35,648 bases of DNA from Rhodospirillaceae bacterium (GTDB taxonomy: Bacteria > Pseudomonadota > Alphaproteobacteria > CACIAM-22H2). Below the pieces are notes generated by a model, which did not search any database, was not told the DNA's origin, and saw only the letters and a program-made list of their open reading frames with translations. This document shows, one piece after another, positions 27,728 through 30,140 of this stretch; positions within the stretch are counted from its first letter, which is position 1, and every line of letters starts with the position of its first letter. The stretch lies in assembly GCA_009694125.1 (NCBI GenBank), contig SHVT01000011.1:1-35648 (forward strand). The letters are read 5' to 3'. A program made the position numbers and the translations under genes.

Positions 27728-28360
27728 ATGGACGGAAACGCAGTGACGCGGCCCTCGACCATCCGCGTCGATCTTCAACTCGTTGCGGATATGGTGACGG
27801 CGCGCAGCCGCGTGCTCGATGTCGGCTGCGGCGACGGAGCGCTTTTGGACTATCTCGTGCATTTCAAGCAGGTGGATGGCCGCGGCGTGGAACTCAGCCA
27901 GGCCGGCGTCAATGCCTGTGTTCGCCACGGGCTGCCGGTCATCCAGGGGGATGCCGATACCGATCTCAAGGACTACCCCTCGGACGCCTTCGACTACGTC
28001 ATCCTTAGCCAGACGCTGCAAGCGACACGCGACCCGCGAATCGTGCTGCGGCATCTTGTCCGCATCGGGCAGCGCGCGATCGTGTCTTTCTCCAATTTCG
28101 GGTTTTGGAGGGTGCGCTGGCATCTCGCCTGGCATGGGCGCATGCCGGTGGCGGAGGCGCCCGGACTGTATTGGTACGACACGCCCAACATCCATCCCTG
28201 CACGATCACCGATTTCGTCGATCTGTGCCGGGAGCTGGACATCGCCATCGAAAGCGGTCTGGCGCTGGATCGCCGCGGCCGCACGCGCCGGCTCAACTCG
28301 CCCGGCTTCTTCGCCAATCTGTTCGGCGAGCAGGCGGTGTTTTTGCTGCGCCGGCCTTAG
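27728..28360 (+). CDS. metW: MetW, methionine-biosynthesis partner of MetX
   Basis: MetW is a class I SAM-methyltransferase-like protein encoded next to metX in many proteobacteria and reported to be needed for, or to stimulate, MetX activity. The 210-residue product has motif I VLDVGCGDGALL near residues 29-40. The MetW-specific DYVILSQTLQATRDP and SFSNFGFWRVRWHLAWHGRMP follow. PGLYWYDTPNIHPCTITDF near the C-terminus is diagnostic. ATG 27728 immediately follows the metX stop. The stop overlaps by 3-4 bases the end of a minus-strand gene, so the two transcripts converge. Confidence 0.95.
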   Translation: MDGNAVTRPSTIRVDLQLVADMVTARSRVLDVGCGDGALLDYLVHFKQVDGRGVELSQAGVNACVRHGLPVIQGDADTDLKDYPSDAFDYVILSQTLQATRDPRIVLRHLVRIGQRAIVSFSNFGFWRVRWHLAWHGRMPVAEAPGLYWYDTPNIHPCTITDFVDLCRELDIAIESGLALDRRGRTRRLNSPGFFANLFGEQAVFLLRRP

Positions 28361-29343
28361 CGAAATTTCAGACCGGCGCGCTGCGGCAAGATCGGACAGG
28401 GCTGCCCTCTGTCCTGCAGGGCCGCGACGATGGTCGGTGAAAACCAGGTCTCGACCACGTTCAGGGATTCCCTGAGAAATTCTGCGTCCGAAGGCGGCTG
28501 CGTTGGGATAAGGCTCCGCGCCTTGGCCAGCAGCTCCTCGTGTCGAGCGCGAGCTTCCTCGAAGCGGCCCGATTGAATGAGGTCGAAAACGATCTGAATG
28601 GGATACGCAAAGGGAATGTAGGTCTCGGATGTTTCCTCCCGGATACTCCTGTCATAGTACTCGGCGTCGGTTTCGTAGATCTTGGGAAAGGAACGGCAGG
28701 CCGGCCGATAAGTGCCGCCGCTCCAGGAATAGATGATTATTGGGGCAGGGTGGAAGGGACCTCCAAACCAATTTTACCAGTGGGTATCGTAGGCAAAGAG
28801 TTCGGGCCTACCGTCGCCGTCCAGATCTGAAAAGTTGTAGACCAATGCGATAGGGGTGATGTCGATTGAGGCGCGGTCGAGGCGATAAATGCGTATCCCG
28901 TGCGAAGACCCAGATCCGCCCGACCAATATAAGAGGAAAAGGACAGGCACGCCGTCGTGATTGATGTCGTGCCCCGTGGGCTCAACGATACTCAGGAAAC
29001 GGTCCTCGTAACGCCTTCGAAACGTCAGCGTCACCCTGTCGGGGGATTCGACCCCGACTTGGTGCAATTCGAACTTCCGCCCGCTTTCGGTCTCCCAAAT
29101 GAGGGCAAGGAAGGACGGCGTGCCATTCCGTCGAAACAAAACGTATTGTTCAAGTCTGTGTCCAGAGCCGCGCGTCTTTTCCAATTGCGCCAAGATGCCG
29201 GGTAGCCAGGACGGATTCTCATTCAACGCGTAGGTCAGAGCCCGCGGACCCGATCTTGCAAAATCGATGGACTCGGCACTGGGTTGCGCCAGCGCGGTAG
29301 TCGCGCACGGCACCTTGCCCACAACCGCATGGACTACCCCCAA
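28357..29343 (-). pseudogene. FG-GAP/VCBS-like protein interrupted by an in-frame TAA
   Basis: I do not recognise a named family. The open part from TTG 29343 encodes 189 residues with two calcium-loop motifs typical of FG-GAP/VCBS repeats: DINHDG (126-131) and DLDGDG (173-178). It ends AYDTHW at a TAA (28774-28776). In the same frame, 138 further codons stay open to a TAA at 28357, and they continue the same protein style at once: NWFGGPFHPAPIIIYSWSGG, then a charged helical tail with ESGRFEEAR-like character (GRFEEARARHEELLAKA). This suggests one original 328-codon gene split by a nonsense change such as TAC to TAA. The N-terminal segment (cleavage ALA-QP) is signal-like but weakly hydrophobic. 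GTG 29322 is an alternative start. Base composition looks less GC-rich than the neighbours. The apparent larger frame running up to 30138 is an artefact over the methyltransferase gene. Confidence 0.6.
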
Positions 29344-29399
29344 AGAACTGTTCCCTTTGCGATTACGGACACGACTTTGCGGCAGAATTTTGGCGGGCG

Positions 29400-30140
29400 T
29401 TAGGTGAAATCGCGAGATCGGCCGACGCCCTGGATTGCCGGGGCTTGTTCGGCACGGCGGCGGCGTGGCGAGCGCACCGCCGAGGCGGCGTAAAGCTGCT
29501 TGCCGGCCTCCACCAAAACCACACCGGCGAAACCTGGGAACCAGCGCTGGCCGATCTGCTCCCAGGCCGACGCGGAGCCGAGCAGCACCCGCCGGCGGCT
29601 GGGCGGCACGAACAATGCCCCGGCATTTTCCAGGGGAGCGAACATCGTGTCGCGCAGCAGCCGCGACAGCTGGCCCGAGGAATAGGGTAGGCCGTGGCCG
29701 AAGGGCGTGCGGTCGGTGCGGGCCCAAATGCCGCGGCGGTTGGGCACAACCGCGATCAAGCGGCCGTCGCCCGACAACACGCGCCATATCTCGCGCAGCA
29801 TCGGGCGTAGCTGTTCGCTGCATTCCACGGCATGGACCAACAACACGCGGTCGAAGGACAGGTCGGGAAAAGGCAGCTCCGTCTCGTCGGACAGCGCCAC
29901 GATGTTGGGCGCGTCGGGCGGCCACCGCAGGACGCCTTGCCCCGCCGGCATCACCGAAACAACACGTTCGGCCTCCTCGCGAAACGGCAGGATGAAGGGA
30001 ACCGGATAACCCAGGCCAAGTACGCGCATCCCCCGCACATCCGGCCACAATGCCCGCAATTGGCGACGGATCATGCGCCGCGCCACCTGCCCGAGGCTGG
30101 AGGCGTAGAAATCGCGAAGGTCGATAACATCGGTCCACAT
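29400..30140 (-). CDS. Class I SAM-dependent methyltransferase (Methyltransf_11-like)
   Basis: The 246-residue product has the methyltransferase fold order. Motif I is written VLGLGYPVPFILPF rather than the common DxGxGxG. Then come an acidic-strand region (ALSDETELPFPDLSFDRVLLVHAVE), motif-post-I ECSEQLRPMLREIWRVL, and DGRLIAVVPNRRGIWARTDRTPFGHG. The start MWTDVIDLRDFYASSLGQVARRMIRRQLR is typical of a conserved alphaproteobacterial family whose substrate is unknown; some genomes place it beside glyoxalase genes. The variant motif I is shared by this family, as far as I know. It is on the same strand as pyk, 72 bases downstream of it, and precedes the broken FG-GAP-like gene. Confidence 0.82.
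   Translation of the reverse strand: MWTDVIDLRDFYASSLGQVARRMIRRQLRALWPDVRGMRVLGLGYPVPFILPFREEAERVVSVMPAGQGVLRWPPDAPNIVALSDETELPFPDLSFDRVLLVHAVECSEQLRPMLREIWRVLSGDGRLIAVVPNRRGIWARTDRTPFGHGLPYSSGQLSRLLRDTMFAPLENAGALFVPPSRRRVLLGSASAWEQIGQRWFPGFAGVVLVEAGKQLYAASAVRSPRRRRAEQAPAIQGVGRSRDFT

Follow-up and report, generated by a model that had tools for sequence, protein, structure and literature searches.

One in-frame stop codon interrupts a gene for a probably secreted protein, a probable horizontal acquisition next to metW

The window analyzed here, the whole stretch of 35,648 nt from Rhodospirillaceae bacterium contig SHVT01000011.1, carries metW (PF07021; 27728–28360, plus strand) and a methyltransferase gene (Methyltransf_11; 29400–30140, minus strand) with a third gene between them. 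metW is conserved in place. Sharing the minus strand with the methyltransferase gene and lying 56 bp beyond its end, the intervening gene (28357–29343) is read from 29343 to 28357. Its probable start is a TTG at 29343, the sole standard start between the stop of the upstream gene and the coding part, and an AAAGGGA stretch precedes this codon. The proximal 189 codons (28777–29343), the product expected by standard translation, begin with a weakly signal-peptide-like N-terminus and end with AYDTHW, where a TAA follows (28776–28774). After this stop come 138 open codons (28360–28773), opening NWFGGPFHPAP, in the same frame and with no frameshift. The terminal TAA (28359–28357) overlaps the metW stop TAG (28358–28360) on the opposite strand. 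The first-pass annotation had given the coordinates, the TAA at 28774–28776, the 138 codons that follow, the second TAA at the metW stop and the lack of a frameshift correctly, but had not specified the minus strand. The region of the gene showed no sigma-70-type promoter, and Rfam gave no RNA element. The distal part has no usable start until a GTG at its codon 106, and reinitiation of this part was rejected because no start codon lies near its beginning.

To compare the two parts with relatives of the protein, we used a family profile made from six relatives, with the window protein left out. The proximal part scored 134 bits. The distal 138 codons alone scored 54.3 bits, whereas 200 shuffles of them reached at most 2.5 bits; the other frames shown scored among those shuffles. 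GC content at the three codon positions was 59/47/68% upstream of the stop and 57/48/69% downstream, and for both halves the codon-usage score was highest in the same frame. From composition alone, the chance of 138 codons staying open is ∼1.3%; openness by itself would be weak evidence for coding, and it is homology that argues strongly for the distal half. In a ten-member alignment, an amino acid occupies the TAA column in all nine homologues, which come from other genomes of the class, and the in-frame stop is private to this genome among the aligned sequences. All full-length homologues have both parts in one frame, and the short form would lack conserved C-terminal columns of the family. 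As judged from these comparisons, both parts belong to one protein, interrupted by a single in-frame stop. The first-pass annotation had likewise seen a single gene broken by one stop. It had proposed a search for a full-length homologue in which an amino acid replaces the TAA, and nine were found; rather than ending at AYDTHW with the distal part absent or unrelated, homologues continue past the stop. Its example of an ancestral tyrosine (TAC to TAA) finds no match, as homologues with the DTRW-type motif show Ser, Gly or Ala at this column.

That the distal part keeps its coding character and family similarity would also be expected if the TAA were read through, in a programmed or leaky manner, to give a short and a long form. 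Yet the column is free of stops in every full-length homologue, and RNA folding after the stop matched the shuffled expectation (z 0.01). Moreover, TAA terminates the methyltransferase, pyk and FGase genes in the window, and a TTA anticodon was present in 0 of the 28 tRNA genes found in this 75%-complete genome. Readthrough is thus unlikely, and we rate it the least probable of the explanations weighed here. A change of genetic code was rejected as well, because TAA ends neighboring genes and no tRNA with a TTA anticodon was found.

The main alternative to a nonsense mutation is a base-call error, in which case the organism would carry an intact gene and a one-base mistake in the contig would account for the TAA. 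The lesion is one codon in one assembled contig of a draft genome (65 contigs, 75% complete), and the remaining frame is clean and coding-like, consistent with such an error. But the flanking genes are intact, and since the frame is unchanged, a miscall here would imply a substitution, a less common error than the homopolymer indel. We regard this explanation as improbable, while granting it more weight than readthrough. Of the options offered in the first-pass annotation, then, nonsense mutation is favored, base-call error keeps a minor share, and programmed readthrough is unsupported.

Comparison of the locus across genomes suggested how the gene came to be there. In two congeneric genomes, metW and the methyltransferase gene converge, their stops separated by only 26 and 30 bp, versus a gap of 1,039 bp in the window. 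The gap is 20–83 bp in four more genomes of the same family; in a fifth it is 518 bp, with no coding sequence of this kind. A segment of ∼1.0 kb (28363–29395) is thus absent from both congeners. It has a GC content of ∼58% versus 64% for the window, and includes the lowest-GC 500-bp bin of the window. Absence from the same locus in close relatives, together with atypical composition, is the pattern of a recent gain. With two congeners to polarize the change, gain in this lineage rather than repeated loss would be the simplest reading. This genome holds no second copy of the gene. At the ends of the segment, neither target-site repeats nor inverted transposon ends were clear, with short matches at chance level only.

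The protein, probably secreted and ∼328 residues long if intact, belongs to an unnamed, patchily distributed family. Of 385 genomes of the class searched with a profile, nine had a match, this one included; that count refers to the class profile search, and additional searches brought more relatives. The closest homologues, in genomes G326 and G404, are 36–38% identical to the window protein, and a relative in a genome of the same family (G004) is 28–30% identical. Conserved motifs are GHD..GDGVP, PAC and a C-terminal CP. No relatives came from a single-protein scan of genome contigs, from protein and pattern scans of viral contigs, or from tblastn against plasmid and phage sequences. A PDB sequence search returned no credible match, NCBIfam did not classify the protein, and PHROGs gave nothing useful for the family members tested. 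An AlphaFold model of an intact relative, based on three sequences and too weak (mean pLDDT 53.5) for fold searches or domain borders, suggests that the front is beta-rich and the back helical. In a distant relative from G357 (L041:1348–2226), an in-frame TGA lies ∼15 codons from the equivalent of the window stop.

A gene with a GH108 or GH108-like lysozyme domain immediately precedes the family gene in genomes G136, G301, G402, G326 and G404. Of these lysozyme genes, that of G136 alone passes the Pfam cut-off for GH108; the rest are weak Pfam matches, connected to it through a profile made for this analysis. In G550, what may be the remnant of a GH108-like gene is present. In the 385-genome sample, the family occurs in nine genomes and the GH-like profile in eight, with four shared versus ∼0.2 expected by chance. 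From this recurrent place downstream of GH108-like genes and this co-occurrence, we infer that proteins of the family act in the periplasm as partners of GH108-like lysozymes, possibly as inhibitors or immunity proteins. The pairing is a candidate effector–immunity or lysin–inhibitor pair; our searches of the literature on GH108 and immunity found nothing relevant. The window copy is an orphan: its protein is of the same family as the lysozyme partners, and neither a GH108 nor a GH-like gene was found in the window or elsewhere in this genome (75% complete). The first-pass annotation had missed both the absence of the segment from congeners and this lysozyme link. Through this stop-interrupted gene, an unnamed secreted family came to light that accompanies GH108-like lysozyme genes in a few genomes of the class.

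Several further features of these loci were seen. The pairing of a GH108-like gene and a downstream family gene recurs at L054:4839–7252, L055:4034–6709, L053:6971–9025, L062:8716–10869 and L061:7246–9180, and several of the GH108-like and family proteins of these pairs have a similar ...FRF/FRx ending. Two of the GH108-like genes themselves appear damaged, by an in-frame stop in G402 (L053:9119–9121) and by a frameshift in G404 (L061:7246–7304). The family gene of G136 has phage-type neighbors too. Elsewhere, GH-like genes are followed by other genes, including one for an ankyrin-repeat protein in G281, which suggests that the partner gene of the GH108-like lysozyme is exchangeable. The G281 protein (L068:2197–3297), encoded after the GH108-like gene, is signal-peptide-like.

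The position of the stop deserves comment. The congeneric orthologues of G326 and G404 (L036:1390–2496 and L045:1501–2580) share ∼94% nucleotide identity up to codon 195 and ∼40–80% thereafter; the drop falls at the DTRW motif, one or two codons from the TAA column. Synonymous divergence jumps there from dS 0.22 to 1.5, which suggests that C-termini have been exchanged by recombination at this motif in the relatives. Two copies from G363 also have a common frame change at the same D-RW motif. The TAA thus sits almost exactly at the divergence jump of the G326/G404 pair, which could hint at a module border instead of a random hit. If so, the proximal part might work as a short protein in its own right, with the distal part forming a C-terminal module that is silent or open to exchange. 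However, both parts share one frame in all full-length homologues, no start codon lies near the front of the distal part, and conserved C-terminal columns are missing from the short form. The structural model, in turn, is too weak to define domains. We see only a slim chance that the stop marks such a border. Slimmer still is the chance of a broader version, in which the family would be a modular, immunity-type partner of GH108-like lysozymes with C-terminal modules swapped at DTRW, and the stop in the orphan would free a working N-terminal module. The G363 copies (L040:1880–2003 and L050) lie at contig ends that open with the same sequence, and that in L050 has an additional in-frame TAG near the C-terminus.

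We favor, with a probability of about 0.74, the view that this is a horizontally acquired orphan gene that later gained a nonsense codon and is now an early-stage pseudogene. One gene, encoding a probably secreted ∼328-residue protein, would have arrived by horizontal transfer without its partner gene, landing in the tail-to-tail spacer between metW and the methyltransferase gene. One nonsense codon would have been gained afterwards, so that translation ends after 189 residues. The last 138 residues, which in the weak model of a relative cover the last of the beta-rich region plus the helical C-terminal region, would then go unmade, and function would presumably be lost. Ancestrally, the protein may have partnered a GH108-like lysozyme in the periplasm, perhaps as its inhibitor or immunity protein. 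As expected of a nonsense pseudogene, nine homologues run on in frame with a sense codon at the site of the stop. Because the 327 codons contain a single stop and no frameshift while the nearest homologue is ∼37% identical, the lesion appears young relative to that divergence. A stop-interrupted gene is as such ordinary, and standard ORF calling would truncate or miss this one.

Comparison with known systems places the gene as follows. The first-pass annotation had called the protein FG-GAP/VCBS-like, and it does resemble FG-GAP/VCBS proteins (PF13517, PF01839) in one short acidic D-x-D-x-D-G stretch (DLDGDGRPEL) just upstream of the stop. But Pfam scores are below the cut-offs for both FG-GAP_3 (16.7 versus 26.9 bits) and FG-GAP (13.9 versus 22.1 bits), the stretch is not repeated, and FG-GAP matches were absent from the seven other family members scanned. 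This classification is therefore unsupported. With the unnamed secreted family (L036, L037, L038, L039, L043, L045), the window copy shares the sequence family, the signal-peptide-like start and the GHD..GDGVP, PAC and CP motifs. It differs from those members in carrying the stop and in having no nearby lysozyme gene, and it is missing a C-terminal stretch as well as the C-x-x-C pair that follows DTRW. Finally, the window gene is consistent, in general terms, with what has been reported for bacterial pseudogenes from failed horizontal transfer (Liu et al. 2004, PMC522871). Like the failed-transfer pseudogenes of that study, it combines atypical composition, absence from close relatives, a premature stop and a missing usual neighbor. 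Whereas more than one disablement per candidate was required there, the window gene has one and no frameshift; a single disablement of this kind is a very early stage of decay.
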